From Planctomycetia bacterium (GTDB lineage: Bacteria > Planctomycetota > UBA8108 > UBA1146): a stretch of DNA of 34,722 nucleotides. The translations under genes were made by a program, and so were the position numbers. The DNA lies in assembly GCA_009937185.1 (NCBI GenBank), contig JAACCY010000104.1, forward strand, positions 1-34,722, in the 5' to 3' direction. Every line of letters starts with the position of its first letter. The stretch's first letter is position 1. A model generated the notes under the pieces. It made no database searches, had not been told where the DNA came from, and was given only the letters and a program-made list of their open reading frames with translations. Positions 3,317-34,484 of the stretch are shown one piece after another.

Positions 3317-4326
3317 TGAGCATTTGGGCCAGAGTGTTGCTGGCTTCGATGGTCGTATTTCTGAGCAGTTGCCAAAGCGATTCCAAACCTTCTGTGACAA
3401 TTTATTGCGCTCATGATCGGGTTCATGCGGAACAAATTTTGGATCTTTTTGAGGATGAGACGGGGATTCGTGTCGATGCCATTTTCGACACGGAGGCCAA
3501 TAAGACGGTAGGCCTTGCTGAAAGGCTTCGAGCTGAGAGAGGGCGTCCACGTTGCGACGTGCATTGGTCGAATGAGCCTTTGAGATCTGTCAGATTATCA
3601 CGTGAGGGTTTGTTTAGAAAAATGCCATCTGATCTTGGGGCCGCCATCCCCGAGATGTGGAAAGACAAATCAGGACTGTGGTGTGGTTTCGCCGGGCGTG
3701 TCAGGGTTCTTGCCGTACAACCCACTTCACCCGCAGGGCAGTGGACCGGTCCCGTTTCCATGAAGCAACTCACAGAGGATCAGTGGTTGGGCAAAGTGGC
3801 CTTGGCAGATCCTCGATTCGGCACAACGGGTTCTCACTTGGCAATCATCCGATCCATGGAGGGTGAGGAATCCTACCTGAATTTATTACAGGGGCTCCAG
3901 CTGAACGACGTTCAATTGGTGTCTTCAAATTCTGCTAGCCGAGATCGCGTACTCTCAGGAGAGGCATGGATAGGTGTCACTGATACCGATGATATCGAAG
4001 TGGTTCGCCGGAGAGGTGAGAGTATTGGCGAGGTCTTTTTAAGTACGGATGGAGATGTGCTTTTGCCGAATGTGATTGCATTGGTAAAGGGAAGTCCGAA
4101 TCCGACAGAGGGAGAGATCTTGGCCCGCTGGTTGCTGAGTTCCAGAGTTGAAGAGTTGTTGGCGGCTTCTAGCAGTCGGCAAGTTCCTCTTATTCCTGGC
4201 ACGTCAGTACCTGTGGGTGGACTCAGTATTGAAGACCTTGATCCACTCGTTATTGACTGGGATGATGCCGCCGACGCTCTTCCTGCGGCTATTCAGGAAG
4301 CTGAAAGGTATTTGCTGGACCGCTGA
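3316..4326 (+). CDS. lipoprotein extracellular substrate-binding protein, Fe(III)/FbpA-like family
   Basis: Predicted binding protein of a Fe(III)/thiamine-type ABC importer, 336 residues. The N-terminus is a lipoprotein signal: a short charged start, a hydrophobic stretch and LSSC with the acylated Cys at residue 19. The mature protein opens with VTIYCAHD, the usual first strand of FbpA-like proteins (VTVYSAHD). The hinge region contains GVTDTDD (222-226 for TDTDD), typical of this family, but I see no paired tyrosines like the iron ligands of FbpA, so the substrate is uncertain. ATG at 3316 overlaps the preceding stop and follows AGAGGAG at 3301-3307; the longer frame from 3295 would spoil the signal peptide. 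The permease and ATPase follow directly. Confidence 0.88.
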   Translation: MSIWARVLLASMVVFLSSCQSDSKPSVTIYCAHDRVHAEQILDLFEDETGIRVDAIFDTEANKTVGLAERLRAERGRPRCDVHWSNEPLRSVRLSREGLFRKMPSDLGAAIPEMWKDKSGLWCGFAGRVRVLAVQPTSPAGQWTGPVSMKQLTEDQWLGKVALADPRFGTTGSHLAIIRSMEGEESYLNLLQGLQLNDVQLVSSNSASRDRVLSGEAWIGVTDTDDIEVVRRRGESIGEVFLSTDGDVLLPNVIALVKGSPNPTEGEILARWLLSSRVEELLAASSSRQVPLIPGTSVPVGGLSIEDLDPLVIDWDDAADALPAAIQEAERYLLDR

Positions 4327-5825
4327 TGAGAAGATTGCTTTCCTGGATTTGGCCTCTTCTTCCACTTCTCTGTGGTTTCTACATACCGGTTTTCATTGCT
4401 GTTTTGGATGATGTCGCACTGGGTTCCATCGAGGTCGCTTTTTCCAGCGTTGTCACTTCGATACCCGTAATATTTTCTACAGCGATTCTTGCCATCTCCG
4501 CAGCATTTTTGGCCACTCTGATCGGGGCGGTCGATGCATTGTTGATATCCGGAGTAAGAGGCGTGACTTCGGGTCGTCTGAGATTTCTTTGGGTACCCCT
4601 CCTGATTCTCACCTTCACCACACCACCTGCGGCAGTCGCTTCTGCAATTCAGTCTACATTTGGATCTTCATTTCTTGTCGCAGGAGTCAGGGATGAGTTT
4701 GGCGCATTGATATTGTTGTCATTACGTTGGGCTCCGGTCGCACTCGCGATATTGCTAGGGCTATCGCTGACGATTCCTCGTGAACAGGAATGGGCATTGC
4801 GATTGCTCCCACCAGTGAAAGCTCTCAAGGTGAGATGGCAACTTCAGCGAAATTGGCGTCGGGCTTGTATGCTCTTGCTCTTCTTGTTGATGCTGCCCGC
4901 CGCAGAGATTCCTTCTTATGCAGGAATAGAAACGATATCTCGAAGAGTGATGGCTCGCTTGACTGTTGGAGATGGTCTTTCGGGCTGGATTTTATCTGCG
5001 GGCCTTGCCGGAATTGTGGGGCCATTGTTGGCATGGTTGATGCCTGGAAATCAATGGTGGGGGCGGGGTTTGAAAACTTTGTCGCCAGCGGGATTGCCCA
5101 CATGGAAGTTTGCCAGTGGATGGTGGATTCTTAGAGTGGTCCCTGCGATATCTCTGATTCTGATATTGATCTACACCGCTTGGCCTAGAGCCAGTGAAGT
5201 GGAGTTAGCGAAAAGCGAGTTTTTGTCAGCCTTATGGAATGGAATTATTGAGATTCAGAGGGCACTGCTGGTCTCTGTCTTGAGTGTGCTTTGTTGCTGG
5301 CGACTTGCTGTTGCAAAGAGAAAGTGGGCGTTATGGGCTTGGTGTCTTCCAACGTTTTTGCCCGCGAGTTTATTGGGCTTGTCTCTCGCCTCGACATGGG
5401 GTGTTCATGCACCCGTGTTTCTGGACCGCATTCCTTGGTTGCTGTCTTTGGCACACGTCGTTCAACTGGGAGCGTTGTCAGCGCTGGCTGGAATATTGGC
5501 AGTGAGCATGATTCCGGAAGAAGAAGCGAATGCGGCAAGATTTGTGAAGCCTGAAATTGCATGTTGGCGTATCTTCTTGCCCCGTTCATTGCCGGTACTG
5601 ATTCCTGCCAGCATCATGGGAGCGATTCTTATACTGGGGGAAGTAGAATCGACTCTGTTGTTGGCGCCACCTGGGCACCCCTCTCCAGCACTGGAGTTGC
5701 ATCAGTTGCTCCATTTTAGGAATGACGAACAGGCGTCTCGGCTGGCACTCGCATTGATCATTCTCAGTTCAGGGCTCACCTTGTTGTTTTCAGGAGTATC
5801 ACTCGGAAGGAAAGACCAAAGATGA
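4326..5825 (+). CDS. ABC importer permease, two-domain FbpB type
   Basis: Inner-membrane permease of 499 residues with about twelve hydrophobic segments, arranged as two six-segment halves in one chain as in FbpB/SfuB iron permeases and ThiP. The second half has a recognisable EAA loop (EEANAARFVKP followed by FLPRSLPVLIPA), the site that contacts the ATPase. The equivalent loop in the first half (around EQEWALRLLPPVKALK) has lost the central glycine and the ILP end, so it is degenerate. The gene overlaps the binding-protein gene by one base (TGATG) and the ATPase gene by four (ATGA), which supports a three-part importer made from one mRNA. Confidence 0.87.
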   Translation: MRRLLSWIWPLLPLLCGFYIPVFIAVLDDVALGSIEVAFSSVVTSIPVIFSTAILAISAAFLATLIGAVDALLISGVRGVTSGRLRFLWVPLLILTFTTPPAAVASAIQSTFGSSFLVAGVRDEFGALILLSLRWAPVALAILLGLSLTIPREQEWALRLLPPVKALKVRWQLQRNWRRACMLLLFLLMLPAAEIPSYAGIETISRRVMARLTVGDGLSGWILSAGLAGIVGPLLAWLMPGNQWWGRGLKTLSPAGLPTWKFASGWWILRVVPAISLILILIYTAWPRASEVELAKSEFLSALWNGIIEIQRALLVSVLSVLCCWRLAVAKRKWALWAWCLPTFLPASLLGLSLASTWGVHAPVFLDRIPWLLSLAHVVQLGALSALAGILAVSMIPEEEANAARFVKPEIACWRIFLPRSLPVLIPASIMGAILILGEVESTLLLAPPGHPSPALELHQLLHFRNDEQASRLALALIILSSGLTLLFSGVSLGRKDQR

Positions 5826-19943: not shown

Positions 19944-20819
19944 CTAAAATTTGAACGTCGCACCGAGTTCAAAAGAGGTCAGAGCAAAGTCGAGCTTCGC
20001 AGAATCTCCACTCCCTGATCTATCAAACTCCAGTTCAAGTTGATTGTAAGCGGCATGAAGACTCCAGCTTGAACTCGGCTTCCATGAAACTCCAAATGAA
20101 CTGTCTCTATATTTTGAGGGTTGAAACTGCTCTCCGTAAAGCAATGAATTTGTATAGATTACGTAAAGATCCCACTGTTCTCCCAAATCCCAATTCAAGG
20201 ATAGGCCTCCCACTGGGATTTGGACCAGATCGGACAGTTCTGTGGAAATTTGAGGATCCAATACTGAGGTCGCTCCGAACTTGTAGTCGAGGAAATCCAG
20301 ACCCGCTAACCATTGAATCTTTGGGGAGGTGATTCCAAAAAGAGGGTCTAAGGGGATCGACTGTAGCAGTCGAGTTGAGGTGACCTTGGTGTCGAATTGG
20401 TAGTCACCTGCAGGTAGCTGTGAGCCTCCGAATGATCCTGAAAACGGTTGGCTTGATTCTGATTGCCCGTTGAGCAGTTCGAGGCTCCATGAAACAGGGC
20501 CGTGTGAAAGTTTGAGAGCAGGACTATATGTCACTTCAGAAGCGTCGAGCCCCAGTTCACCCAGAGTCACTTGCGACTCTTTTCCGGGGGAGTCTGAAGA
20601 AATGGTTCCTGAAAGTGATGTTTGGGTTAGTGAATGTGAATGCTCCAGTGAAAATCGATCCAAGTTTTTTGAAGTGGTCGAGCACCCGACTGTAAACACG
20701 ATCGGGATGAGAATAGTGAAAAGCAGGAGGTCGCGGCCTGCTCCAGCTGAGCGGATCGAAGAGATTGTTACACTCTTCCCAGTGATTAAATATTGCTCAA
20801 AGATGGTCACCACCGTCAT
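19944..20819 (-). CDS. predicted outer-membrane beta-barrel-like lipoprotein
   Basis: Protein of 291 residues with no family I recognise. A hydrophobic stretch (LLLFTILIPIVFTVGC) ends in a lipobox with Cys46. The long 45-residue lead suggests that the real start may lie a little further in, but only ATG 20819 and two GTG codons next to it are available. The mature part is rich in alternating polar/aromatic strands (WSLELLNG, WDLYVIYTN, WSLHAAYNQLELEF) and ends in FELGATFKF, a terminal phenylalanine typical of outer-membrane barrels. It is the first gene before phoB and phoR on this strand, 36 bases from phoB, so it may be co-transcribed or be a regulated target. Lipidation plus a barrel is unusual. 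Confidence 0.6.
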   Translation of the reverse strand: MTVVTIFEQYLITGKSVTISSIRSAGAGRDLLLFTILIPIVFTVGCSTTSKNLDRFSLEHSHSLTQTSLSGTISSDSPGKESQVTLGELGLDASEVTYSPALKLSHGPVSWSLELLNGQSESSQPFSGSFGGSQLPAGDYQFDTKVTSTRLLQSIPLDPLFGITSPKIQWLAGLDFLDYKFGATSVLDPQISTELSDLVQIPVGGLSLNWDLGEQWDLYVIYTNSLLYGEQFQPSKYRDSSFGVSWKPSSSWSLHAAYNQLELEFDRSGSGDSAKLDFALTSFELGATFKF

Positions 20820-20928: not shown

Positions 20929-23900
20929 TTGAAGGCTAGGATAGGGAGGCGACGATTTCAGACCATTTCATTGGGATTCGAGTGTTACATGTCTTCTATG
21001 CCTCTCAGTAATGAAAGAGTGAAAGTGGCTTTATTGATAGCTCGCGCTCTGAAGATCTGCGTTGCGGGGGGGGCTCTGGCAGCCTCGATGATCATTCTGG
21101 GAATCCCGAATGTGATCGATAAGAATTTCGAAGTTGCCGCAATGACGTCGATGGAAGATCCGCGTCTGGAATTTTTCGAGAAGAAGGTTCGGCCCTTATT
21201 GGTCGACCGGTGTCTTTCTTGCCATGGGACAGCAGGCCAAAAGCAGGAATCAGGTCTCAATCTGACCCATAGGGAAGGGTTGCTGACGGGCGGGCAAAGA
21301 GGCCCAGCAGTGATTCCAGGAGATGCCGCAGGTAGTTTGTTGATCTCTGCGGTGCGCGGGTTGGATCAAGGGGAGCATCTCGGGCTGAAAATGCCGCCTG
21401 AGGGGGAACCTCTCTCTGTTAAAGAGATCAGCGTACTTGAGCAATGGATTGAGGATGGACTTGTCGATCCTCGAACGAATTCCCCTGCACATTCTTCGGG
21501 TTCAGGAAACGGCATCCCAGACATGGAGTTGAGGGCGAACCATTGGTCATTCCAAGCGATGGCGCATCCCCAGATTCCAGAGGTGAATTCAAAAGATAGG
21601 ATTCGTCAAGATCTCGATGCCTTTGTCCTCGCACAGTTGGAAAGCCTCGGTTGGCAGATGGCTCCGGAGGCTTCGACGGAGACTTTAGCCCGCAGATTGT
21701 CCCAAGGGCTTACGGGCTTACCCATCAGTTGGGATCGATTGATCCAACTTCGAGATTCCGAAAACCCAGAAGCTTTGGGGGACTACGTCGAGGAACTATT
21801 GGCTTCTGAAGCGTTTGGGGAGCGTTGGGCTCGGTGGTGGCTTGATCTCGCACGCTATTCTGATTCCAACGGACTGGATGAGAACCTGGCCTATGGTGAA
21901 GCATGGCGTTTCAGGGATTACGTCATTCGATCCTTTAATCAGGACAAACCATACGATCGATTTTTGACGGAACAATTGGCGGGTGATCTCTTACCTCAGC
22001 CTGATTCCGATGAATCTTGGAGAGATCAGAGGACCGCAACCGCTTTCCTCGCTCTCGGACCGAAAATGCTCGCAGAGCAGGACAAAGATAAATTAGCCAT
22101 CGATGTCGTGGACGAACAACTCGATGTTGCCGGGCAAACATTTCTGGGAATGACGATCGGTTGCGCCAGATGTCATGACCATAAATTCGATCCTGTCACT
22201 GCTCGTGATTATTACGCGATGGCAGGAATATTTAGGTCGACCAGTACTTTTGAAGATCTGAACTTCGTTTCGAGATGGCGTGAGATCTCCTTAGAGACAG
22301 CTACGGAAAAAACTGCGAGAGAAGTCTGGCAGAAAAAAAGGAGTGAAGTTGTCGAGCGACGAGAGAAGACTTTAGTTTCCTTGCGGCACGATCTTGAGAA
22401 TCTTCTGTTGGAAGAATTGCCTGAACAGTTACTCAGCGCTGAAGAACTGGCATCCCGGGTTCCCGGAAAGACAGTGGTTGAAAATTCTTCCATGTCTTTG
22501 GGGCTCAATCACCAAATGTATGGAACCCCATACTTTCCAGTGGCCCACACCGTTCAAAGTGGAATGCAACAGGTGACGTGGCACATCGAAGTCTTGGAGT
22601 CTGGGCTTCACGATCTTCAGGTTCGGTACACTGCGCTCGAATCAAGGCCTATGAAGTTGTTTCTCGATGGTGAGTTGCTGACGGATCAGGCGCTCAAGTC
22701 GATGACGGGCACGTGGAGTGCAGATGGATTGCGCTGGGAGTCTCAAGCAAAGTTAGATCTGTCTCCCGGCATCCATGAGATACAGTTGGTCGGTGGTGGG
22801 CAGTCAGTGCCACACATCGACAGGGTTCGATTGTTACATGAAGATTTGTTGGCAGAAGTTCAGAACCCGTCCGGTGTCTTGGCATGGGTGGATTTTCTTC
22901 GGAGGCCTTCTACCCTCAAAGATCCTCTTTGGGGCAGTTGGGCAAGAAGCGCAGCCCAGCAAACTTCCTCCCCTCGATTTGATGGCGAACAAGATTTTCT
23001 GAGGGAAGAGGATAGAGGCGCGCTTTCCGCCGAAATCGTAGAGATCCTTGTGAAGCTTGAGGATAACCCCGATTTCTCTGAGCCACATCGACACTGGGCT
23101 TTGCGTTGGCAAGAGCTGCTCAGGGAATCGTCCCCCCGTGAATCGGATCCGCCGTCGGAGTCGTTGAAAAAAGTACACGATCATGTCGTGGGAATTTCAG
23201 GACCTTGGTATGAGATCCTCCAGAGCGCGGAACAGACCGCTCCTGAGGATTTAAAAGAGAAACTGAACTCTGATCAGAAAGAATTGGTTCGCCTCGACGG
23301 AGTGAAGCCTCCTGACCCCCAAAGATCACTGGGAGTTCAAGATGGGGAAATCGTAAACTTACCTGTTCACATTCGTGGCAGTCATCTTCGATTGGCTCAA
23401 GAAGAGGTACCCCGAGGATTTATGGGGGTGATTGAAAATGTCTTATCTGCTCCAGAAATCCCTGCGGATAAAAGCGGAAGGTTGGAGTTGGCGAATTGGA
23501 TGACGCGTGAAGAGCATCCTTTAACCGCAAGAGTTCTCGTCAACAGGGTTTGGTTAGAGTTGTTCGGCGATGGATTGGTTGCGACGCCATCTAACTTTGG
23601 TTTGAGGGGGGACGCTCCTAGTCATCCGGAGTTATTGGATCACCTGGCTCGAGATTTCATAAAAGATGGTTGGTCTATTAAGAAACTCATACGAAAGATT
23701 GTGGATAGTTCTGCTTGGCGACAACAGGTGGTCGAGAACTCTGAATATCAGAACATCGATCCTGAGAATCGTTGGTTGTGGAGTCAGAATCGGCAGCGAT
23801 TAAGGGCTGAATCTGTAAGAGATGCTGTTCTCTTTGTCAGTGGGCAATTGGATCAGGATTTGGGGGGGACCCTTTTGATGACCCCAAACCGGGGTTATGT

Positions 23901-24351
23901 CACCAATGACCAGTCCAATAATCAGGCCCGATACGATGTGCCGCGCCGATCGATCTATCTTCCAGTGATTCGAAATGCAATGTACGAGTTGTTCAGCGCT
24001 TTTGACTACAACGACCCCTCGATACATATTGCACGCCGGCCTTCGACAGTTGTTCCGCATCAAGCGCTCTATTTCCTGAACTCTCCAATGGTGATTGAGG
24101 CTTCTGGGAAACTGATCACTCAGGTTTTTGCAGAATCTGAGGGCTCTGAGGAGAGAGTCAGAAAAATCTATCAGAGAGTTCTATGTAGAAATCCTGATGC
24201 CGAAGAGATCGAGAGAGCTCACCTGTTTTTGGAGAATGCAAAAGTGATTTTGGCGGCGGAAGAATCTGACGTCGAGACGAGAGTTCTTTTAGCATGGCAA
24301 AGTTTTTGCCAAACACTGATAGCCGCAAGTGAGTTCCTTTACTTGGATTGA
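20929..24351 (+). CDS. planctomycete-type cytochrome-like protein (PSCyt1-PSCyt2/DUF1549-DUF1553)
   Basis: Large (up to 1140 aa) exported protein typical of Planctomycetota and Verrucomicrobiota. After a hydrophobic signal/anchor at about 33-57 comes the PSCyt1 domain with a haem-type CLSCHG (C95, C98, H99) and MPPEGEPLS; then DUF1549 (NHWSFQAM; ARWWLDLARYSDSNG; DKPYDRFLTEQLAGDLLP) containing a second CARCHDH (C412, C415, H416); a carbohydrate-binding-like middle section around 515-650; and DUF1553 at the C-terminus (from about 830, with LANWMTREEHPLTARVLVNRVW). TTG 20929 follows GAGG, but ATG 20989 is possible. It ends nine bases before the DUF1501 gene. Such pairs are suspected in polysaccharide breakdown or redox work at the cell surface, without firm proof. 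Confidence 0.9.
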   Translation: MKARIGRRRFQTISLGFECYMSSMPLSNERVKVALLIARALKICVAGGALAASMIILGIPNVIDKNFEVAAMTSMEDPRLEFFEKKVRPLLVDRCLSCHGTAGQKQESGLNLTHREGLLTGGQRGPAVIPGDAAGSLLISAVRGLDQGEHLGLKMPPEGEPLSVKEISVLEQWIEDGLVDPRTNSPAHSSGSGNGIPDMELRANHWSFQAMAHPQIPEVNSKDRIRQDLDAFVLAQLESLGWQMAPEASTETLARRLSQGLTGLPISWDRLIQLRDSENPEALGDYVEELLASEAFGERWARWWLDLARYSDSNGLDENLAYGEAWRFRDYVIRSFNQDKPYDRFLTEQLAGDLLPQPDSDESWRDQRTATAFLALGPKMLAEQDKDKLAIDVVDEQLDVAGQTFLGMTIGCARCHDHKFDPVTARDYYAMAGIFRSTSTFEDLNFVSRWREISLETATEKTAREVWQKKRSEVVERREKTLVSLRHDLENLLLEELPEQLLSAEELASRVPGKTVVENSSMSLGLNHQMYGTPYFPVAHTVQSGMQQVTWHIEVLESGLHDLQVRYTALESRPMKLFLDGELLTDQALKSMTGTWSADGLRWESQAKLDLSPGIHEIQLVGGGQSVPHIDRVRLLHEDLLAEVQNPSGVLAWVDFLRRPSTLKDPLWGSWARSAAQQTSSPRFDGEQDFLREEDRGALSAEIVEILVKLEDNPDFSEPHRHWALRWQELLRESSPRESDPPSESLKKVHDHVVGISGPWYEILQSAEQTAPEDLKEKLNSDQKELVRLDGVKPPDPQRSLGVQDGEIVNLPVHIRGSHLRLAQEEVPRGFMGVIENVLSAPEIPADKSGRLELANWMTREEHPLTARVLVNRVWLELFGDGLVATPSNFGLRGDAPSHPELLDHLARDFIKDGWSIKKLIRKIVDSSAWRQQVVENSEYQNIDPENRWLWSQNRQRLRAESVRDAVLFVSGQLDQDLGGTLLMTPNRGYVTNDQSNNQARYDVPRRSIYLPVIRNAMYELFSAFDYNDPSIHIARRPSTVVPHQALYFLNSPMVIEASGKLITQVFAESEGSEERVRKIYQRVLCRNPDAEEIERAHLFLENAKVILAAEESDVETRVLLAWQSFCQTLIAASEFLYLD

Positions 24352-24360
24352 GAGACGTCA

Positions 24361-25776
24361 TTGATCATTGATCCGTCGAATATGCATCCCGGAGGTATTT
24401 CGCGTAGAAGCCTTCTTAAGGGATGTTGTGCAGGATTTGGCTCTCTCGCCCTCGATGGACTCATGGGGTCGTCCTCTCTTTTTGCTGGGATTCCGGGTGG
24501 ACCTCACCATGTACCCAGAGCGAAGAGGGTCATTTTCCTCTTCATGCATGGAGGGCCTTCTCAGGTCGACACGTTCGATTACAAGCCGCGATTAATCAAG
24601 GATCATGGAAAGCCATTGTCGTTGCCCTTACCTCGGGTCACATTTGCGGACCCTAAGCAATACGGGGGCGTATTGCAGTCACCCTGGGAATTCAGCAGGC
24701 ATGGGGAATCCGGGATGTGGGCGAGCACTCTGTTTCCCCACGTCGCAGAGATGGTCGACGATCTATGCTTCGTAAAAAGCTTACACGGGACGAATGACGC
24801 CCATGGAGGGGCACTGTTGGCTCTCCATACCGGCAGCGACACCTTTGTCAGGCCTAGCATGGGGTCTTGGATTCAGTATGGGCTCGGTGAGGAAAACTCC
24901 AACCGTCCCGGATTTATTACGATTTGTCCCACCTTGGGTCATGGGGGCGTGAATAATTGGTCCAGTGGCTTTCTGCCCGCTCGTTTTCAAGGGACTCCTA
25001 TCGGTCACGCAGGAGTGAAGGCCAGAGAAGCAACGATCCATCATCTGAAAAACAATCACTGGAATCAGGGATTACAGCAGCTGCAATTGGGACTGCTCGA
25101 AGAAATTAATCTAGAACATTTAGGAAAGAGAGAAACGGACGATGCTCTCGAGGCTCGAATCCGTTCATTTGAACTGGCATTCCAAATGCAAACAGAAGCT
25201 CCAGAGGTCATGGACCTCACAGGGGAAACAGAAACGACCCTCGATCTTTATGGTATCGATGAAGAGCCCACTGATAACTTCGGTCGTCAATGTTTGATGG
25301 CTCGTCGATTTGCCGAGGCTGGGGTTCGGTTTATTCAATGCACTCACTCTTATAAATGGGATCAGCACACCAACCTCGAAAGAGATCATTCGAAGAATGC
25401 TCATGAAGTGGATAAGCCGATCGCTGGACTTCTCAAAGATCTGAAAAGTCGAGGCCTACTCGAGGACACCCTCGTTCTTTGGGGTGGAGAGTTTGGAAGA
25501 ACACCGATGGCACAGGACGGGACAGGACGAGATCACAATCCTCATGGATTTACGATGTGGATGGCCGGGGGTGGAGTGCGAGGAGGTTTCTCTTATGGAG
25601 AGACAGATGACTTTGGTTATCACGCGGTGATCGACAAAGTGCACGTGCATGATCTTCATGCCACGATTTTACATTTGTTGGGAATCGATCACGAAAAGTT
25701 GACCTATCGCTACGCAGGTCGTGACTTCCGTCTTACCGATGTTCACGGCAGGGTGGTCAATGAGATCATTGCTTGA
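24361..25776 (+). CDS. DUF1501 family protein with Tat signal
   Basis: Exported protein of 471 residues from the sulfatase/alkaline-phosphatase-like DUF1501 family. The N-terminus has a twin-arginine signal: SRRSLLKGCCAGFGSLALDG. Conserved stretches include HGGPSQVDTFDYKP, MWASTLFPHVAEMVDDL, KSLHGTNDAHGGA, GPSMGSW-like RPSMGSWIQYGLG, and LVLWGGEFGRTPMAQ followed by GRDHNPHGFTMWMAGGG, which carry the likely metal-binding His and Asp residues. TTG at 24361 is the start by the spacing to GAGAG upstream; ATG 24382 would also retain the RR motif but lacks a ribosome site. It forms a pair with the DUF1549/DUF1553 gene directly upstream; partner proteins of this kind are probably folded before export. 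Biochemical activity unknown. Confidence 0.92.
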   Translation: MIIDPSNMHPGGISRRSLLKGCCAGFGSLALDGLMGSSSLFAGIPGGPHHVPRAKRVIFLFMHGGPSQVDTFDYKPRLIKDHGKPLSLPLPRVTFADPKQYGGVLQSPWEFSRHGESGMWASTLFPHVAEMVDDLCFVKSLHGTNDAHGGALLALHTGSDTFVRPSMGSWIQYGLGEENSNRPGFITICPTLGHGGVNNWSSGFLPARFQGTPIGHAGVKAREATIHHLKNNHWNQGLQQLQLGLLEEINLEHLGKRETDDALEARIRSFELAFQMQTEAPEVMDLTGETETTLDLYGIDEEPTDNFGRQCLMARRFAEAGVRFIQCTHSYKWDQHTNLERDHSKNAHEVDKPIAGLLKDLKSRGLLEDTLVLWGGEFGRTPMAQDGTGRDHNPHGFTMWMAGGGVRGGFSYGETDDFGYHAVIDKVHVHDLHATILHLLGIDHEKLTYRYAGRDFRLTDVHGRVVNEIIA

Positions 25777-26013: not shown

Positions 26014-26595
26014 TTACCAGTTGACTCCGGTCATCACCGAGAAGACAGATCTATCAGAAATACCGTCGTAGGTTGAGAAGCGGTAGTCGATACCAATGTG
26101 AGAGTTATCTCCCAGGTGAAGCACTGCGCCTCCGTGGAAGTAGACTCCGCTTTCATCGGCATTGACGTCGTACTCATTTATTTTCAGCTGAGTGATTCCG
26201 CCCCCTCCGATGAGAGAGAAGGGAGTGAAGGGAAGCTCAGCGGTGACTCGGCCACCGAAGAAAAATTCCGAGTTATCGATATCTCCCAAAACACCGTTGT
26301 CCTCGGTGGCGTTGAGGTATCCGACTTCCGGAGCAACGTACCAGTCACTCTTGCGAGCGCTGATCCAAAGTCCGTAACCATCGACGTCGACGAGATCCTG
26401 AGGATTTTCGTTGTAGTCATAGGTTCCATAAAAAGCGCTGACTTGCCCCGAATATGGTTTTTCGATCGGCTGATCGACTCCAGAGAAGGGGGACTTCGTG
26501 TCAGGTCTTAGACGGACCCAATCCTCATTTCCGGCGCAACCGGCGAGGAACACGAGGCACAAGAGAGCGATACTTGAGGTTTTGAGACTGGACAC
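26014..26595 (-). CDS. predicted outer-membrane lipoprotein with beta-strand-rich domain
   Basis: Protein of 193 residues. GTG at 26595 is chosen because GGAGA lies six bases upstream and it gives a textbook lipoprotein signal: SSLKTSSIALLCLVFLAGC with Cys20. The longer frame to 26670 would bury this signal. The mature part alternates short strands (YSGQVSAFYGTYDY; WYVAPEVGYLNA; FFFGGRVTAELPF; VYFHGGAVLHLG; HIGIDYRFSTYDG) and ends VMTGVNW with an aromatic residue, as in small outer-membrane barrels (OmpA/OmpW-like). No named family is recognised. It stands alone, pointing at the shared terminator; its promoter should lie in the 720-base gap to the right. Confidence 0.7.
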   Translation of the reverse strand: MSSLKTSSIALLCLVFLAGCAGNEDWVRLRPDTKSPFSGVDQPIEKPYSGQVSAFYGTYDYNENPQDLVDVDGYGLWISARKSDWYVAPEVGYLNATEDNGVLGDIDNSEFFFGGRVTAELPFTPFSLIGGGGITQLKINEYDVNADESGVYFHGGAVLHLGDNSHIGIDYRFSTYDGISDRSVFSVMTGVNW

Positions 26596-27316
26596 TTTGG
26601 GTCTCCAATTCTTCCATGGGCTAGGTGCACTAAAGGGCACCTTCGGTCGCGACAGAGGGCATAGACGCACAGGTTACCGGGTAGGCTTCCTGCTTCTCTT
26701 TAACCGTGTCTGGTTGATCGGGTTACTTTTCGGACTCCAATACTGCCAAATCTAGGAACCTTGGAAGTCTCAACTCCTTCGGTATAGATGACAGCATAAG
26801 AGCGGGATTCTAGACCGATGTCTGTAGAGCGGCAAGGGTCCCGCCTCAGGCTTTTCTTCTCAAGGCGTCCAACATCTCGTTATCGGAGCGGATTCTGGAG
26901 TAAAAAAGACCAATGATTGGGCAATTCTTGACTCGAACCGGGCATCTCTTACGATCACAGGTTGGCGGATCCCCCTTCGGGAGGTCCGTCAACCCCAGAG
27001 TTCCCAGGGGGGGCGGCTCAAGCCGTCTCTTCATGTTTTCATCACGATTCGGGGAATCCGGTTCGAATCCATGCGGATGTCGCGCTGATCAGGATTCTTC
27101 CTTTGGAAGATCTTCTCATGCTCGTCGAGCTTATTGAGGAGATTTTTTCGGGGATGTTGTCCTGCAGTTTGCGTCATTTGAAGTGACTACGATTTTTCGT
27201 GGCCACTTTTGCTGGCGTTGCTGTGGCTTCTGAAGAGTCTCAAGCATTGCATTCTGCATATTTTCGATCGGGTCAACTCACGGATTGCCAGGAGCCCCTG
27301 CTAGGGAAGGCCGCGC
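26596..27316. other. large intergenic region upstream of the pil cluster
   Basis: This 721-base gap separates the divergent lipoprotein gene and the first pilB gene. It contains a cluster of GC-rich hairpins at 26960-27058 and two GTTCGA-type sequences that do not fold as tRNA arms. A 62-codon minus-strand frame (27034-26846) contains three cysteines (CDRKRC, then VKNC) but lacks a convincing ribosome site or homology and overlaps the hairpins. The remainder, especially 27060-27300, shows nothing I can name. Confidence 0.55.
26960..27058. ncRNA. cluster of GC-rich hairpins, possible structured RNA
   Basis: Three adjacent stem-loops are seen: GGTTGGCGGATC (26960-26971) with GGTCCGTCAACC (26983-26994), 12 bp including two G-U pairs and capped by a CCCC-TTC-GGG loop; GGCGGC (27012-27017) with GCCGTC (27022-27027); and GATTC (27046-27050) with GAATC (27054-27058). 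CCCC 26993-26996 can also pair with GGGG 27007-27010. Strand is undecided because G-U pairs favour the + strand RNA. It is about 260-360 bases before pilB. It does not match the GEMM c-di-GMP, cobalamin, SRP or RNase P patterns that I know. Confidence 0.35.
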
Positions 27317-29011
27317 ATGAAGAAGAAAGTCGGAGAAATCCTGCTCGAAAAAGGCTGGGTTACCGAAGAGCAAGTTCAAAAAGCTCTCTCATACGGTAAG
27401 GCAGAAAATTGTCGTATCGGTGAGGCTTTGTTGAATCTTGAGATTTGCTCACAGGAGCAAGTCACGAGAGCGCTTGCGATTCATTTCCAGTTACCATTTG
27501 CCAACCTTGGTAAGCACGTGATTCCTCAGGAAATCATCGATGCTGTACCCAAGGATGTGGCACTGGAACATCGAATTATTCCGGTAGCTCGTAAAGGTCG
27601 AAGTCTGGTGATTGCACTCTCAGACCCGCTCGACTTCTTTGCTCTCGATAACCTCAGATTCATTCTTTCGACAGAAGTCGATTGTGCACTCGCTATGCCG
27701 GATGCCGTGGATGAAGCCCTCGACGATTACTATCGCTTAGCGGGGGGATACGACTCGGTTCTGGGTGAGGATGCCGGTTCAGACGAAGACGTCGAATTCG
27801 GTCGTGGAGATTATTCCGGAGAAGATGGGGATGCCAATGATGCTCCCGTCATCAAATTGGTGCATATGATCATTGCCAATGCGCTGAAGGCCGGAGCCTC
27901 TGATATTCATGTCGAGCCGATGGAGCACCATCTTCAGGTTCGGTACAGAATCGACGGTGTTTGCCAGATCATGGACTCCCCGCCAAAAAAACTGCAGGGC
28001 CCCGTACTCTCCAGAGTAAAAATTATGGCTCGTATGGATATGGCAGAGAAACGTCGACCACAGGACGGCCGTATCAAGATCAAGATTTCGGGTAAAGAGA
28101 TCGACCTTCGAGTCTCTGTTATCCCGACAGTTCATGGCGAGAGCATCGTTATGAGGATTCTTGACAAGGACGCGGGACTGGTTGATCTGGAGAAATTAGG
28201 ATTCCACGAATCGGATCTGAAAAGATTCAATAGGATCATCAAGCGCCCGAATGGAATCTTCCTCGTCACCGGGCCTACAGGTTCAGGTAAGACGACAACA
28301 CTTTATTCGGCACTGATGAATCTGAATAAGCCTGACACCAAGATCATTACTGCAGAGCACCCGATTGAATACAACTTGACGGGTATCAATCAGGCGGAAG
28401 TTCGACACGAAATCGGACTCGATTTCTCTCGAATCCTTCGCGCCATGATGCGTCAGGCTCCCAACATCATCCTTGTCGGTGAGATTCGTGACCGGGAAAC
28501 AGCGGACACCGCTATTCAGGCGGCCCTGACTGGACACTTGGTCTTCTCAACCCTCCACACCAATGATGCGCCGTCAGCATTGACGCGTCTCATTGATATG
28601 GGAGTGAAGCCGTTCCTCGTGGCCTCCGCAGTCCTCTCTATCATGGGGCAAAGACTGATCAGGAAATTGTGTTCGACATGCAAGGAAACCTACGAGCCGG
28701 CTGAAACTGAACTGCGAATGATTGGCCTGACCACTTCGGAGATACAAGGTCAGCAGATCTATAGGCCTGTCGGCTGTGACAAATGTTCTGGTGGATACAA
28801 AGGAAGACTTGGAATCTATGAGTTGCTGGAGATGTCCTCTGATTTGAGGGACCTGACTTTCAAAAAGTCGGTGTCGAAGGATCTTCGCAACAAGGCAAGA
28901 AGTGAGGGCATGGTGACTCTGCAGGAAGATGCTGTTCGCAAGTTGCTTGCCGGAGTGACCTCGGTTGAGGAAATCCTTCGTGTGACGCACTCCTCGGAGT
29001 TTGCTGGTTAG
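27317..29011 (+). CDS. pilB: type IV pilus/type II secretion assembly ATPase, first PilB/GspE paralogue
   Basis: Hexameric motor ATPase of 564 residues for a type IV pilus or type II secretion machine. The N-terminal MshEN-type domain (about 1-140) begins KKVGEILLEKGWVTEEQVQKAL and repeats the pattern as RIGEALLNLEICSQEQVTRAL. The core has Walker A GPTGSGKT at 319-326, Walker B region ILVGEIRDRETA, the His box HLVFSTLHTNDA, and a four-cysteine zinc site (C452, C455, C487, C490). Two departures: the Asp box reads TAEHPIEY with His348 where TxEDPxE is usual, and RQAPN (379-383) stands for RQDPD. ATG 27317 follows AGGGAAGG. A second paralogue and pilC follow closely. Confidence 0.9.
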   Translation: MKKKVGEILLEKGWVTEEQVQKALSYGKAENCRIGEALLNLEICSQEQVTRALAIHFQLPFANLGKHVIPQEIIDAVPKDVALEHRIIPVARKGRSLVIALSDPLDFFALDNLRFILSTEVDCALAMPDAVDEALDDYYRLAGGYDSVLGEDAGSDEDVEFGRGDYSGEDGDANDAPVIKLVHMIIANALKAGASDIHVEPMEHHLQVRYRIDGVCQIMDSPPKKLQGPVLSRVKIMARMDMAEKRRPQDGRIKIKISGKEIDLRVSVIPTVHGESIVMRILDKDAGLVDLEKLGFHESDLKRFNRIIKRPNGIFLVTGPTGSGKTTTLYSALMNLNKPDTKIITAEHPIEYNLTGINQAEVRHEIGLDFSRILRAMMRQAPNIILVGEIRDRETADTAIQAALTGHLVFSTLHTNDAPSALTRLIDMGVKPFLVASAVLSIMGQRLIRKLCSTCKETYEPAETELRMIGLTTSEIQGQQIYRPVGCDKCSGGYKGRLGIYELLEMSSDLRDLTFKKSVSKDLRNKARSEGMVTLQEDAVRKLLAGVTSVEEILRVTHSSEFAG

Positions 29012-29061
29012 TTAATTTTGAAATCTAACGGTGCCGCCCCGTCATGGCGGTGAGGTGAGAC

Positions 29062-30771
29062 ATGGCAATGGCTTCTCAGCCACTCGGACAGATCCTCAAG
29101 GAGATGGGTAAAATCTCCGAACTCGACATCCAGGAGGCGCTGCAGGATCAAAAAGCCCGCGGCGGCGCCATCGGTAAGATTCTTTCTGACAAGGGACTCG
29201 TTACTGAAGAGGACCTTCGCATTGCGATTGCAAAGCAGTCAGGAATGGAACCGGTCAATCTGGATGAAATCGTAATGACTACGGATCTTCTCGATATGGT
29301 TCCTGCCCACGTGGCAGAGACGTACCAAGTAATTCCTGTGGACTTTGATGGCTCAGTTTTGACGCTGGCCCTCGCAGATCCACAAAACGTGAGTGCACTC
29401 GACGACATGAAGTTCATGCTGAATGTCGACGTCAAAGGTGCTCTCAGTGATGCGACTTCTGTAGAAGCTGCATTGACGAAATACTACAGTGATCGTTCGG
29501 AATCGATGGAGAGCTTGCTCGGATCGATGGATTCCGGAGATATGGAAGTCATGGATGACAGTCGTCATCAAATGATGGACATGGATCAGTTGGAGAAAGA
29601 CGTCAACGCTGCTCCTGTGGTCAAACTTCTCAACATGGTGCTGTTGTCAGCGATCAAGGATCGTGCTTCAGATATTCACCTGGAACCCTTCGAGAAAGAG
29701 TTCAAGATTCGATACAGGGTAGACGGGGTTCTCTATGAGATGATGCCACCGCCAATACAATTGGCGAGGGCTGTGATCTCAAGAGTGAAAGTCATGTCCA
29801 ATCTGGACATCGCTGAGACGCGATTACCTCAGGATGGTCGTATCGAGTTGAACATTGCCGGTCGTCCGGTTGACCTTCGTGTTTCGACACTTCCGACTAT
29901 GTACGGAGAATCGGTCGTAATGAGGGTTCTTGACCGAGGTCAGGTTTCTCTCGATCTGGAACAGATCGGATTGAGAACCAAGGATCTGGAAATCATTCGC
30001 AAACTGATCCTGAAACCAAACGGGATCATTCTTGTGACGGGGCCTACGGGTTCTGGTAAGACGACCACTCTTTATTCATGTCTGAATGAAGCGAACGATC
30101 CGATGACCAAGATCATCACGACTGAGGATCCGGTAGAATACAACATCGATGGAATCGTTCAGATTCCCATCAACGAGGATATCGGGGTGACCTACGCTGC
30201 TTGTCTCCGTGCCATCTTGCGTCAGGACCCGGACAAGATTCTCGTCGGTGAGATTCGTGACCTTGAGACGGCTCAGATTGCTGTTGAGGCGAGCTTGACG
30301 GGTCACATCGTGTTCTCAACCCTTCACACCAACGATGCTCCTTCCTCAGTCATTCGATTGGTGGACTTGGGGATCGAAGCGTTCTTGCTGACTGCGACCG
30401 TTGAAGCGGTTGTGGCTCAAAGACTGGTGCGTCGTGTCTGTTCAGAGTGCAAAGAAGAGTTTGAGCCGACGGACGAAGTCTTGATGGAGCTCGAATTGAC
30501 CCGTTCAGATGTTCAGGGTCGAACGTTCTTCTACGGAAAAGGCTGCAAAGTTTGTAATGGATCGGGATACAAGGGTCGTATTGCCTTATTCGAGATCATG
30601 ATGATGTCGGACAGACTCCGGGATTTGATCATGGATGGAGCCAGTACACAGGAAATTCAAAATGCGGCTCGTGAAGAGGGTATGCAGACCCTCAGGGACG
30701 CAGGATTGATCCATATTTACGACGGTGTGACCACGATTGAAGAAGTCGTCAAGGAGACCATCGTCAGTTAG
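29062..30771 (+). CDS. pilB: type IV pilus/type II secretion assembly ATPase, second PilB/GspE paralogue
   Basis: Second motor ATPase (569 residues), about half identical to its neighbour by eye. The N-terminal MshEN-like domain has PLGQILKEMGKISELDIQEAL and GAIGKILSDKGLVTEEDL, where the usual arginine of RxG is replaced (PLG, AIG). The catalytic core is canonical: Walker A GPTGSGKT at 327-334, Asp box TTEDPVEY (D356), RQDPD (387-391), ILVGEIRD, HIVFSTLHTNDA, and a C4 zinc site (CSECKEEF and CKVCNGSGYKGR). ATG 29062 has GAGGTGAG upstream; a small GC-rich hairpin (CCGCC/GGCGG, about 29033-29050) precedes it. The gap to the first paralogue is 50 bases, so one transcript is likely. This copy is the more probable main extension motor. 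Confidence 0.9.
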   Translation: MAMASQPLGQILKEMGKISELDIQEALQDQKARGGAIGKILSDKGLVTEEDLRIAIAKQSGMEPVNLDEIVMTTDLLDMVPAHVAETYQVIPVDFDGSVLTLALADPQNVSALDDMKFMLNVDVKGALSDATSVEAALTKYYSDRSESMESLLGSMDSGDMEVMDDSRHQMMDMDQLEKDVNAAPVVKLLNMVLLSAIKDRASDIHLEPFEKEFKIRYRVDGVLYEMMPPPIQLARAVISRVKVMSNLDIAETRLPQDGRIELNIAGRPVDLRVSTLPTMYGESVVMRVLDRGQVSLDLEQIGLRTKDLEIIRKLILKPNGIILVTGPTGSGKTTTLYSCLNEANDPMTKIITTEDPVEYNIDGIVQIPINEDIGVTYAACLRAILRQDPDKILVGEIRDLETAQIAVEASLTGHIVFSTLHTNDAPSSVIRLVDLGIEAFLLTATVEAVVAQRLVRRVCSECKEEFEPTDEVLMELELTRSDVQGRTFFYGKGCKVCNGSGYKGRIALFEIMMMSDRLRDLIMDGASTQEIQNAAREEGMQTLRDAGLIHIYDGVTTIEEVVKETIVS

Positions 30772-30838: not shown

Positions 30839-32080
30839 ATGGCGGTATTCGAGTTCGAGGCAATCGGACCTGGGGGACAAAAAAAGCGTAGTACTATCGA
30901 AGCTGCAAACCAGGCAGAAGCGATTAAGCAATTACGTTCCAGGGGCATGAAGCCAACAAAAATTCGTGAGAGTAAAAAAGCCGCAGCAGGAGGAGCAGCC
31001 TCGGGTGGTAAGAAAAAGAAAATGGGTGGAGGTCTGTTCGGTGGCTCAGTGTCACAGGCTGACCTTGTCCAGTTTACCCAGCAGTTGGCGACTCTTCAGG
31101 ACGCGGGACTTCCCATCGTGCGTTCGCTCAAGATTCTTGCGGACCAAATGAATCCGGGAGTCTTCCAGAACCAGCTCAATCAGGTGACAGAAGATGTTGA
31201 GGGGGGTTCCACTCTTTCGGAAGCTCTCGAAAAATATCCAAAGACTTTCGACACACTCTTCGTTGCCATGGTGAAAGCCGGTGAGGCGGGTGGTGTTCTC
31301 GATACCATCCTTCAGCGTCTCTCGGACTTCCAAGAAAAGTCGATGAAGCTGCGCAAGAAGGTTCAGGGTGCCTTGGTGTATCCGGTGGCCGTTATTTGTG
31401 TGGCCGCGTTGATCCTTGGTTTCATCATGACTCAGGTGATTCCTCAGTTCCAAAAAATGTTCGCCGATATGGATACTGCTCTGCCAGGTCCCACTTTGGC
31501 ACTTTTGGGATTTGCGGAAGCGGTTCAGGGATATTGGTGGGCTGCACCGGTAGTGATTTTCTTGGTGATCGCAGCATTGAAAGCGCTCGCCAAAACCAAC
31601 GGCGGTGAATTGGCCATCGATAAGTCCAAGTTGAACGCGCCGATCTTTGGGCAGATTGTCCGAAAGTCGACCATTTCCAGATTCTGCAGAACTCTTGGAA
31701 CCTTGATCAGTTCAGGTGTCCCGATTCTTGAGGCGTTGGAAATCGTGCGTGCCGCTGTTGGTAACCGAGTGATCTCGGACGCCATCGAGTCTGTCTGCGG
31801 CTCCATCCGTGAGGGTGAGACGATCGCAGAGCCTCTTGGGGCCTCCGGTGTTTTCGATCCACTTCTGGTGAACATGATCGATATCGGCGAGGAAACCGGA
31901 GAACTCGATAAGATGCTGAATAAGATCTCCGATAACTACGATCTCGACGTGGACGTCCTTGTGGACTCCCTTTCCAGTCTCTTGGAACCCGTTCTGATTG
32001 TGGGAATGGGAGGGGCCGTGGGATTCATCGTTGTCGCGTTGTTCATGCCGTTGCTCTCGATCATTCAAAAGGTCGGATAA
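30839..32080 (+). CDS. pilC: pilus/secretion inner-membrane platform protein PilC/GspF
   Basis: Integral membrane platform protein of 413 residues that couples the motor ATPase to pilin extraction. The N-terminus (FEFEAIGPGGQKKRSTIEA) matches PilC/GspF, followed by a Lys/Gly/Ala-rich linker at about 42-64, then two T2SF domains: the first with FTQQLATLQDAGLPIVRSL and VAMVKAGEAGGVLD, the second with FCRTLGTLISSGVPILEAL and NMIDIGEETGELD. Membrane segments lie near 182-205, 228-245 and at the C-terminus (about 383-407). The ATG at 30839 follows AAGGAG. It is the last gene of the pil unit, closed by a terminator 26 bases after its stop. Pilin, PilD and the PilMNOPQ genes are not in this window. 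Confidence 0.92.
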   Translation: MAVFEFEAIGPGGQKKRSTIEAANQAEAIKQLRSRGMKPTKIRESKKAAAGGAASGGKKKKMGGGLFGGSVSQADLVQFTQQLATLQDAGLPIVRSLKILADQMNPGVFQNQLNQVTEDVEGGSTLSEALEKYPKTFDTLFVAMVKAGEAGGVLDTILQRLSDFQEKSMKLRKKVQGALVYPVAVICVAALILGFIMTQVIPQFQKMFADMDTALPGPTLALLGFAEAVQGYWWAAPVVIFLVIAALKALAKTNGGELAIDKSKLNAPIFGQIVRKSTISRFCRTLGTLISSGVPILEALEIVRAAVGNRVISDAIESVCGSIREGETIAEPLGASGVFDPLLVNMIDIGEETGELDKMLNKISDNYDLDVDVLVDSLSSLLEPVLIVGMGGAVGFIVVALFMPLLSIIQKVG

Positions 32081-32106: not shown

Positions 32107-32146
32107 GGGCCGTGTCGGGTATGATCCCGACACGGCCCTCTTTTTT
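32107..32146 (+). terminator. intrinsic terminator after pilC
   Basis: GGGCCGTGTCGGG (32107-32119), loop TATGAT, CCCGACACGGCCC (32126-32138): 13 perfect pairs, followed by TCTTTTTT to 32146. It closes the pil transcript and overlaps the extreme 5' end of the longest RNase R reading frame. Confidence 0.93.
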
Positions 32147-32168
32147 GTCTCCAATCAAAGGAACCCTG

Positions 32169-34484
32169 TTGAGTCGAAACAAGGAAATACTATCCCAACT
32201 TCGTGAGTGGGCACGCAGCAAGGCGTATCACAAAGTGACCCTCTCCGAACTTCAAGGTGAGTTGGAACTGACCGATTCAAAGACCTCGTCTTTATCTGAG
32301 GCTCTTGAGGAGTTGGAGAATTTAGGAGAGTTCGTATTCCTGCAAGCGCGTGGCTGGTTTGTTCCATGGAGAGAAAACTGGTTTGTCGGAACTTTGACCA
32401 TCGCGCGGAAAGGATTCGGATTTGTTCGTGCTTTGAGTGTCGATCCCAGGGGTGACGTGTTTATTCCTGCTCGAAGATTAAAGGACGCTCATCACGGCGA
32501 CCGAGTACTCGTCGTATTGGAACGACCTCGTCGAGGAAAACCTGTTTCGGCTCAAGATGGCCGATCAGGAAAGATTCTCGAAGTATTGGAGAGAAGTCCA
32601 AGGGTGTTTCCCGGTTACTTTCGTGAAGCTGAAGGCGGCGCTGGAATCGTTGAACCTGCCCGACACGAAAGTGTCCGGGAAGTGTGGATCGATCCCAGTT
32701 TTCGATCAGGAATTGAAGATGGAGATCGGGTGCTGGTTCGACTGCGTCAGGGATCGGCCATAGACGGTCTTCCCCCTGGTGAAGTCCTTTGTGCTTGGGC
32801 TCCAGAAGGTACTTGGTTGGCCGACTTACAAATGGTTTGTGCCGAGCATGGATTGAGAGAAGCGTTCCCTCGTGAGGTGGAAGAACTTGCCTCACAGTAT
32901 CCGAACACTATTCCTGAGGAGGAGTTTTCTCGACGGAGCGACTTGAGGGAAGAACCCTTCATGACCATCGACCCTGTCGATGCCAAGGATTTCGATGATG
33001 CTCTCGTGGCTCCTCCTCTTCCAGAGGGAGGGGTTCGTTTGGGAGTCGCGATTGCTGACGTCAGTCACTTTGTCAAACAGGGCGATCCTATCGATGCCGA
33101 GGCATTGTTGAGGGGAACCAGTGTTTATATTCCAGGTAAGACGATTCCCATGTTGCCGGAACGACTGAGTAATGATCTTTGCTCGCTTCGACCGAACGTC
33201 GATCGTTTGGCAAAAGTGGCATGGATGGATATCGATGCGTCGGGAGAGTTCCAAAATATCAGAGTTGAGCACGCGGTTATCAGAAGTGCTCGTCGGTTTA
33301 CCTATGAAGAAGTGCAGTCAATTCTCGACGGTGTTATCGCTGAAAAAGAAGATCCTGTATTGGTCGACCAGGTGACGATTCTCAATCAGGCACGTCAGCT
33401 TCTTCATGACAGACGCATACGCCAGGGATCACTCCAGTTGGAAATTGAAGAGATGAAACTCGTTCTTGACGATGAGGGCGAAGTGATCGACGTGGTCAGC
33501 AGGGAACCTCTGCTGGCTCATGGATTGGTCGAGGAGTGTATGTTGGCCGCGAATGAGGCGGTGGCCACCTTGGCCAGTAGGGAGGACCTCCCGGTTCTTC
33601 GCAGAGTTCATGCTCCACCCGATGAAGCAGAACTTGAAAAGTTTATTAAACTCTGTCGAGTTCTTGTGCCTGAAGCACCCATCAACACAGTGACAGAACT
33701 GGGCAAGTTGGTTGAAGCCGTGAAGGGAAGCGACGTCGCGCCTGTAGTTTTCTTCGCTCTCTTACGAAGTTTGAGCCGTGCGGAATACAGTCCGGTGAAA
33801 GCGATTCACTTCGCATTACAGAAACTTGAATACTGTCACTTCACTTCTCCAATTCGTAGATATCCTGATCTCCAGGTTCATCAGGCTCTCGACAAGCACC
33901 TCTTCTCAGGAGGGGCAGGTCCCAAACTGGGGCAAGAATCTGTGACATTAATGGAGTTGGGAGAATCTTGTTCCACTCGAGAGCGTGCTGCGGAAAGCGC
34001 TGAGCGTGATATGACCCGATTGAGGGCGATTTCTTGGCTCAGGCACAGAGTCGGCGAGCGTTTTCCGGGGATGGTGACAGCGGTGAGGGATCAGGGGTTC
34101 TACGTCCGCTTGGATGGGATTCTCGTCGATGGATTCGTACATGTCTCCAGATTGCGAGATGACCATTACGTCTACAACGAGACCCATTTTGCCTTGAGAG
34201 GCATCAATAAGGGCAACATGATCCGTCTCGGTGACCCTGTGGAGGTGGAACTTGAAGGAGTAGATCCCCTGCAAAGAGACGTCGATTTAAGGTACCTTCA
34301 TACCAGACCGGGTGCCCGCAGGGGCAAAGGAGCGGGAGGGCATCCCGTGAGTAAGGGCGGCAAGAAGAAAGCCGGTCGTGATTCACACCGTAAGGATGCC
34401 GGAAAATCTGGGAGAGGTCACCGAGGATCCTCTCCAGGGAGGAAATCCGGCGGTGGTCAGAAAAAACGCAGAAACTCGAGGTGA
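32169..34484 (+). CDS. rnr: ribonuclease R
   Basis: 3'-5' exoribonuclease that degrades structured RNA, 771 residues. An N-terminal winged-helix-like region (about 1-65) precedes cold-shock domains (NWFVGTLTIARKGFGFV), the RNB catalytic domain and an S1 domain (about 630-715, PGMVTAVRDQGFYVRLDGI), then a 55-residue Lys/Arg/Gly tail. In DPVDAKDFDDA the metal-binding aspartates are D268, D274, D276 and D277, matching the four of E. coli RNase R. TTG 32169 is chosen as start because AAAGGA lies six bases upstream; the frame is open from GTG 32112, but that codon lies inside the pilC terminator stem. rnhA follows after six bases, suggesting a ribonuclease operon. Confidence 0.93.
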   Translation: MSRNKEILSQLREWARSKAYHKVTLSELQGELELTDSKTSSLSEALEELENLGEFVFLQARGWFVPWRENWFVGTLTIARKGFGFVRALSVDPRGDVFIPARRLKDAHHGDRVLVVLERPRRGKPVSAQDGRSGKILEVLERSPRVFPGYFREAEGGAGIVEPARHESVREVWIDPSFRSGIEDGDRVLVRLRQGSAIDGLPPGEVLCAWAPEGTWLADLQMVCAEHGLREAFPREVEELASQYPNTIPEEEFSRRSDLREEPFMTIDPVDAKDFDDALVAPPLPEGGVRLGVAIADVSHFVKQGDPIDAEALLRGTSVYIPGKTIPMLPERLSNDLCSLRPNVDRLAKVAWMDIDASGEFQNIRVEHAVIRSARRFTYEEVQSILDGVIAEKEDPVLVDQVTILNQARQLLHDRRIRQGSLQLEIEEMKLVLDDEGEVIDVVSREPLLAHGLVEECMLAANEAVATLASREDLPVLRRVHAPPDEAELEKFIKLCRVLVPEAPINTVTELGKLVEAVKGSDVAPVVFFALLRSLSRAEYSPVKAIHFALQKLEYCHFTSPIRRYPDLQVHQALDKHLFSGGAGPKLGQESVTLMELGESCSTRERAAESAERDMTRLRAISWLRHRVGERFPGMVTAVRDQGFYVRLDGILVDGFVHVSRLRDDHYVYNETHFALRGINKGNMIRLGDPVEVELEGVDPLQRDVDLRYLHTRPGARRGKGAGGHPVSKGGKKKAGRDSHRKDAGKSGRGHRGSSPGRKSGGGQKKRRNSR

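Follow-up and report, generated by a model that had tools for sequence, protein, structure and literature searches.

A tandem pair of PilB-type extension ATPases in a planctomycete belongs to two PVC-wide clades that differ by an Asp-to-Ala switch at one residue

Why does a single cluster of pilus genes encode two extension motors, and what sets the two apart? The question is raised by a stretch of 34,722 nucleotides, hereafter the window, which is one whole contig (JAACCY010000104.1) of the assembly GCA_009937185.1 of a Planctomycetia bacterium, a genome of 2.77 Mb that is 87% complete. Two genes for PilB/GspE-type ATPases, pilB1 and pilB2, lie here in tandem upstream of a single pilC. We find that their products belong to two separate clades of the Planctomycetes-Verrucomicrobia-Chlamydiae (PVC) superphylum, that one residue, at position 381 of PilB1, distinguishes these clades, and that a division of labour between the paralogues is likely. 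The three genes are arranged as follows:

27317..29011, + strand: pilB1, first PilB/GspE-type extension ATPase, 564 amino acids, PVC PilB1 clade (Pfam/NCBIfam, tree)
29062..30771, + strand: pilB2, second PilB-type extension ATPase, 569 amino acids, canonical boxes, PVC PilB2 clade (Pfam/NCBIfam, tree)
30839..32080, + strand: pilC, platform protein with T2SSF in two stretches, at the 3' end of the conserved cluster (open reading frame, profile search)

The two ATPases are 45% identical over their whole length; by domain, identity is 33% in the N-terminal domain, 51% in N2D and 59% in the C-terminal domain (CTD) with the core ATPase region. Both match the Pfam domain T2SSE (E-values of 1.7e-133 for PilB1 and 5.4e-139 for PilB2; 445.3 and 463.4 bits, above the curated cut-off of 24.9 bits) as well as MshEN (1.4e-19 and 7.3e-17), and both possess the Walker A motif GPTGSGKT and a zinc tetracysteine (C452, C455, C487 and C490 in PilB1, with equivalents in PilB2). 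Against TIGR02538, the NCBIfam equivalog of type IV-A PilB, they score 640.2 and 644.9 bits respectively, slightly under the cut-off of 675.65 bits, so that this score separates neither copy from the other and both are best filed, by profile, among the broader PilB/GspE extension ATPases rather than as equivalogs. The AlphaFold model of PilB1 has a mean predicted local distance difference test (pLDDT) score of 79.7, with low values at residues 347-352. The relevant motifs are:

28271..28294, + strand: PilB1 Walker A GPTGSGKT, residues 319-326 (sequence, alignment counts)
28349..28369, + strand: PilB1 Asp box TAEHPIE, residues 345-351, with H348 for Asp; E347 and the Mg-binding E351 kept
28451..28465, + strand: PilB1 RQAPN, residues 379-383; A381 is the clade-fixed switch (D388 in Pseudomonas aeruginosa PilB), R379 kept
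30118..30138, + strand: PilB2 Asp box TTEDPVE, residues 353-359, canonical (D356)
30220..30234, + strand: PilB2 RQDPD, residues 387-391, canonical (D389, D391)

A sequence-only reading of the window had already reported these motifs, including H348, A381 and N383 in PilB1 and the canonical boxes of PilB2, together with Walker A, zinc cysteines and MshEN-type N-termini in both copies, and sequence and Pfam agree with it. It had also spoken of altered catalytic boxes; the boxes do differ, but the term overstates the case, since no substitution touches the catalytic or magnesium-binding residues, the arginine fingers or the His box. In all 153 rows used for residue counts (68 of PilB1, 64 of PilB2 and 21 of single PilBs, with seven of 160 tree rows excluded, namely L091, L089, both of L126, both of L136 and one of L152) the Walker A lysine K325, the arginine fingers R265 and R280, E347, E351, R379, the catalytic E389, R391 and the His-box residues H407 and H414 are identical. 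E351 and E389 correspond, by gapless alignment and in literature numbering, to E357 and E395 of Geobacter metallireducens PilB; of these, E357 is described as the Asp-box residue that binds magnesium and E395 as the catalytic one (PMC5424180). The substitutions of PilB1 thus flank the catalytic residues, while the catalytic and magnesium residues themselves are unchanged.

Of the three box changes in PilB1, only that at position 381 is a clade-fixed switch. When all 564 positions were scanned for a residue at least 85% fixed in PilB1 and different in at least 70% of both other groups, 381 was the only one recovered, which is far beyond chance: the residue is Ala in 67 PilB1 rows and Ser in one, Asp in 63 PilB2 rows and Asn in one, and Asp in all 21 single PilBs. 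Departures seen from RQAPN are RAAPN (L104), RQSPN (L117, L147), RQAPD (L123) and RCAPN (L086). Position 383 is Asn in 67 PilB1 rows and Asp in one, with the reverse in PilB2 (Asp 63, Asn 1), but since single PilBs have Asn in 8 of 21 rows (Asp in 13), N383 alone is ordinary and was rejected as the key change. H348 was likewise rejected as a fixed trait of PilB1, His being found in 5 of the 68 rows beside Asp in 39, Asn in 20 and Glu in 4. At least 14 letter changes at 348 on the PilB1 tree mark a late, repeatedly loosened site of which His is one local state; M242 accompanies 18 of the 29 rows without Asp348 and none of the 39 rows with it, but independent pairs gave no significance. Asp348 is kept in all single PilBs and in 62 PilB2 rows (Glu in two), so that the Asp-box change is not common among active relatives; the sequence-only reading had named the opposite outcome as one that would refute it, and on this test it was not refuted.

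The variability of 348 and the presence of N383 in single PilBs would also suit another explanation, in which the substitutions are silent, the copies equivalent and kept for dosage, and A381 a frozen accident. We regard this as highly improbable. Position 381 changed once in 68 rows as against 14 times at 348, and PilB2 of the same genomes keeps Asp; were the site neutral, one would not expect Ala to persist across phyla in one copy while never entering the other. The same change is moreover harmful in P. aeruginosa (PMC13170266), as described below.

How old is the pair? In a FastTree phylogeny of 160 rows, a selection from all PilB open reading frames extracted that excludes near copies, fragments and 29 of 80 named loci, PVC PilB1 (68), PVC PilB2 (64) and single PilBs are separate. 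An IQ-TREE analysis of 58 rows with the motif columns removed supports PilB1 with 98/97 and PilB2 with 100/100, and separate duplications in Planctomycetota or in other PVC phyla are rejected (p of 3.2e-6 and 8.7e-6). Both clades are therefore older than the split of these phyla, and their age, together with the 45% identity, rules out a recent local duplication; the tree, being unrooted, does not give the order of age of the two copies. The sequence-only reading, which had called for a phylogeny across PVC genomes, was thus right about the setting. Two Planctomycetota rows with RQDPD/RQDPN (L091, L089) group among the single PilBs. L126 and L136 (one titled UBP18), outside the clear PVC groups and weakly placed in the tree, have an RQAPN PilB, PilT, a second PilB and PilC, and L152 (Goldbacteria) has, at 4989 and 6682, tandem PilB-like open reading frames without the PVC signature, the second without a pattern-recognised Walker A.

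Gene order is similarly conserved. All 66 loci holding both genes (34 from relatives' genomes and 32 from named records, partly overlapping, e.g. L098) read PilB1-PilT-PilB2(-PilC) or, without pilT, PilB1-PilB2(-PilC); L055 reads B1-B2-T-C merely because its PilB2 frame stays open far upstream. One or the other form is found in records of Planctomycetota, Verrucomicrobiota and Lentisphaerota, while PilB1-PilT-PilB2 was read in a Kiritimatiellae record and two adjacent PilBs in one of Omnitrophota. Records of other phyla from the same search mostly have a single PilB, then PilT, then PilC, and PilB1 occupies the slot held by the single pilB outside PVC. In the window's class pilB1 and pilB2 are adjacent, whereas most other classes have a gene of about 360-395 amino acids in between, which in the three copies tested (L057, L058, L103) is PilT (TIGR01420, 443-462 bits, cut-off 319); the tandem arrangement of the window thus follows from the missing middle pilT.

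All 59 genomes in the search of relatives have PilB-type matches, and a PilB1 86% identical to that of the window (L098) is present in a Planctomycetota record. In G003 and G015, of the window's genus and family, the best matches to PilB1 reach only about 1e-130, and pilB1 and pilB2 seem absent, through an assembly gap or loss of the cluster. A search of plasmids returned distant homologues only, below 60% identity. Genomes were also scanned with a DNA pattern that spells RQAPN and the Walker B strand; it is blind to variants like RCAPN, and its matches are not individually confirmed PilB1s. Matches are present in 170 of the 244 genomes of Planctomycetota (one per genome in those listed), in 120 of the 144 genomes from the phylum of an Akkermansia record (L144), with two in G405, and in 1 of 99 genomes of the acidobacterial phylum of L129, there in a PilT-like open reading frame. 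Many pattern-negative Planctomycetota fall into few families, and the member of family f35 that was read has RCAPN (L086). A PilT-like ATPase of 388 amino acids with TIEDPIE and RQAPN, encoded on the minus strand of an acidobacterial-phylum genome (L189), shows that the Asp-to-Ala change also exists beyond PVC, in a motor of the retraction type. We found no paper on the PVC PilB pair in the open-licence full-text literature; for Singulisphaera, up-regulated Tad/Pil genes are reported (PMC11279305).

Are both copies still of use to the cell? Against the nearest relative, G005, the ratio of non-synonymous to synonymous substitution rates (dN/dS) is 0.086 for PilB1, 0.044 for PilB2 and 0.063 for PilC; only this pair of genomes was used (dS 0.10-0.14, unsaturated), other pairs being dropped because dS was saturated. 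Within Planctomycetota, conservation over residues 300-450 is higher in PilB1 (0.839) than in PilB2 (0.791), and over the whole length slightly higher in PilB2 (0.665) than in PilB1 (0.641). Both copies are thus under purifying selection. Decay of PilB1 to a pseudogene was rejected given its open frames, its dN/dS and its intact catalytic set. Two clades, one fixed residue switch and purifying selection on both copies make a division of labour likely, and the proposal of the sequence-only reading that the pair had split jobs holds to the extent that these are paralogues with lasting distinct constraints.

The signal-responsive part which that reading had suggested for PilB1 is not supported. 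It had pointed to an RxG motif in PilB1 (RIGEAL, R33) that PilB2 has lost (AIGKIL, A36), which is correct but only half the picture.

27326..27484, + strand: PilB1 degenerate MshEN cyclic di-GMP motif pair, residues 4-56; K4 and R33 present, motif-end Gln missing (G27, H56)

The full MshEN motif consists of two 24-residue motifs with Arg first and Gln last (PMC5013675), a pattern lacking in both copies: PilB1 has K4/G27 and R33/H56, and PilB2, which keeps both Gln residues, has P7/Q30 and A36/Q59. In MshE, Arg and Gln both contact cyclic di-GMP, and a change of Arg9 or Gln32 is reported to cost up to about fivefold in affinity (PMC5013675). Across Planctomycetota, position 33 of PilB1 is mostly basic (R in 23 and K in 21 of 53) and its PilB2 counterpart mostly not, while the motif-end Gln is kept in PilB2 (Q30 in 47 and Q59 in 48 of 51) and is present at the equivalents in PilB1 in 20 and 30 of 53. 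The NCBIfam model of the motif, NF053729 (cut-off 38 bits), is exceeded by both, slightly more so by PilB2 (51.2 vs 48.1 bits). Since the two N-terminal domains are degenerate at different places, these sequences support no conclusion of a signalling asymmetry between the copies.

What, then, would the residue changes do? In the closed interface of G. metallireducens PilT, R195 and D161 make an inter-chain contact, the Asp box comprising E160-E164 (PMC6858323); in the PDB sequence, EDPIE contains D161 as its Asp, and LRQDPD contains R195 as its Arg. The two residues correspond to 348 and 379 of PilB1, and 381 lies two residues past R379. The fixed change of PilB1 and its most variable otherwise-invariant site accordingly map to, or close beside, the two partners of one inter-subunit contact. 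The D388A allele of P. aeruginosa PilB, selected with a pilus phage, gives a stable protein, fewer surface pili and loss of twitching, and was judged probably dominant negative in that study (PMC13170266); D388 was equated with 381 by its spacing, eight residues before the catalytic E396, rather than by direct alignment. Given the harm done by D388A, PilB1 keeps, fixed and conserved, a change that damages a one-motor system.

Our preferred reading, to which we give an even chance, is that PilB1 hydrolyses ATP and works as a second extension motor for the type IV pilus that PilB2 also serves, with retuned inter-subunit contacts and a shared PilC. Both motors would act on the single PilC encoded beside them; the changes at 348 and 381 would weaken or reshape the coupling between subunits at the closed interface, so that a PilB1 ring may fire with a cooperativity, speed or force different from that of a PilB2 ring, and the work of extension would be divided, e.g. 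between the start of a pilus and its continued growth, as proposed for TfpB/PilB. Several points weigh against this. The contact between 348 and 379 is mapped from PilT rather than seen in a PilB structure; D388A harms a normal PilB, so that PilB1 might perform badly unless changes elsewhere compensate, and among six columns tested by independent pairs as covariation partners of 348 none was significant; finally, the pilins moved by PilB1 and by PilB2 could belong to different sets.

This last point can be extended to the proposal that PilB1 drives another filament or platform of the same cell, such as another pilin set or a secretion pseudopilus, its place beside pilB2 and pilC being merely inherited. 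The genome encodes eight T2SSE-domain proteins, 15 N_methyl pilin-like matches and five secretin matches, and in a few relatives (e.g. G037, G049) pilB1 and pilB2 lie on separate contigs. However, the cluster with one adjacent pilC is kept in Planctomycetota, Verrucomicrobiota and Lentisphaerota, and the two remaining full-length PilB/GspE-type copies of the genome sit away from it, on C53 and C115; we consider this proposal quite improbable.

Alternatively, PilB1 might be a weak or conditional ATPase, mainly a brake or tuner, which would set the number of pili either by competing for PilC or by joining PilB2 in mixed hexamers, as the sequence-only reading had suggested possible. The stable, likely dominant-negative D388A protein suits such a role, the pair is most similar in N2D and CTD, and hetero-oligomers of PilB and TfpB are raised as a possibility in a review (PMC11656802). 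Yet in the nearest published precedent the paralogues PilT and PilU are reported to form independent homohexamers (PMC6821130), and full conservation of the catalytic residues across PVC phyla would be unexpected in a mere blocker, which makes this role unlikely.

The second-motor reading has a close parallel in Acinetobacter baylyi, where PilB and TfpB, two phylogenetically distinct extension ATPases like the PVC pair, work in a single pilus system. Loss of either one impairs the cell, an excess of one motor fails to make up for the other, and a split between initiation and processive extension was proposed (PMC8213720). Unlike the PVC pair, tfpB is not beside pilC. By its NCBIfam cut-off (NF053534, 850 bits) neither copy is a TfpB, PilB1 scoring 490.8 and PilB2 466.4 bits. 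With canonical type IVa PilB (G. metallireducens 5tsg/5tsh, Myxococcus xanthus, Thermus thermophilus PilF) PilB1 shares fold, domain order and catalytic residues (sequence E 5e-150, Foldseek E 9.9e-49), and it differs in the Ala at the first Asp of RQDPD, the replaced Asp of the Asp box and the second PilB of the same cluster. The identical substitution at the equivalent position in P. aeruginosa was selected in the laboratory and costs a system with one motor its function, whereas the PVC bacteria have it fixed in a conserved paralogue of its own. PilT and PilU are likewise paralogous motors within one pilus system, but they act in retraction, PilU requires PilT, and separate homohexamers are reported (PMC6821130).

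The surroundings of the cluster can be described briefly. An RNase R-like gene (32112-34484) directly follows pilC. Upstream of pilB1, on the opposite strand, an open reading frame of 218 amino acids (26014-26670, - strand) has a lipoprotein-like start (LVFLAGCAG) and no Pfam match, and upstream of the pil cluster genes for a PSCyt1/PSCyt2/PSD1 protein and then a DUF1501 protein occupy 20929-25776 (+ strand). Two further open reading frames have no Pfam match: one of 291 amino acids (19947-20819, - strand) and one of 499 amino acids (4326-5822, + strand), the latter within a group of genes that resembles an ABC transporter and includes FtsX/MacB permeases and a solute-binding protein. Elsewhere in the genome, PilM-like and secretin genes share contig C51, and two GGDEF domains are encoded.

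The role of multiple PilB homologues, and whether their rings are pure or mixed, is raised as a question in a 2024 review (PMC11656802). The PVC pair represents a natural experiment on that question, as deep as the superphylum, in which one copy has, and the other lacks, a single substitution of known harm. A bolder and doubtful suggestion would be that PVC pili run on an obligate two-motor engine, in which PilB1, in rings of its own or mixed with PilB2, bears a PilB-poisoning substitution that uncouples the contact between Asp box and arginine and may serve as a built-in clutch for the timing or force of extension. The finding points to residue 381 and to the contact between 348 and 379, in groups represented among named records by, for instance, Neorhodopirellula and Akkermansia, and residue 381 provides a one-codon signature for telling the two copies apart in annotation.

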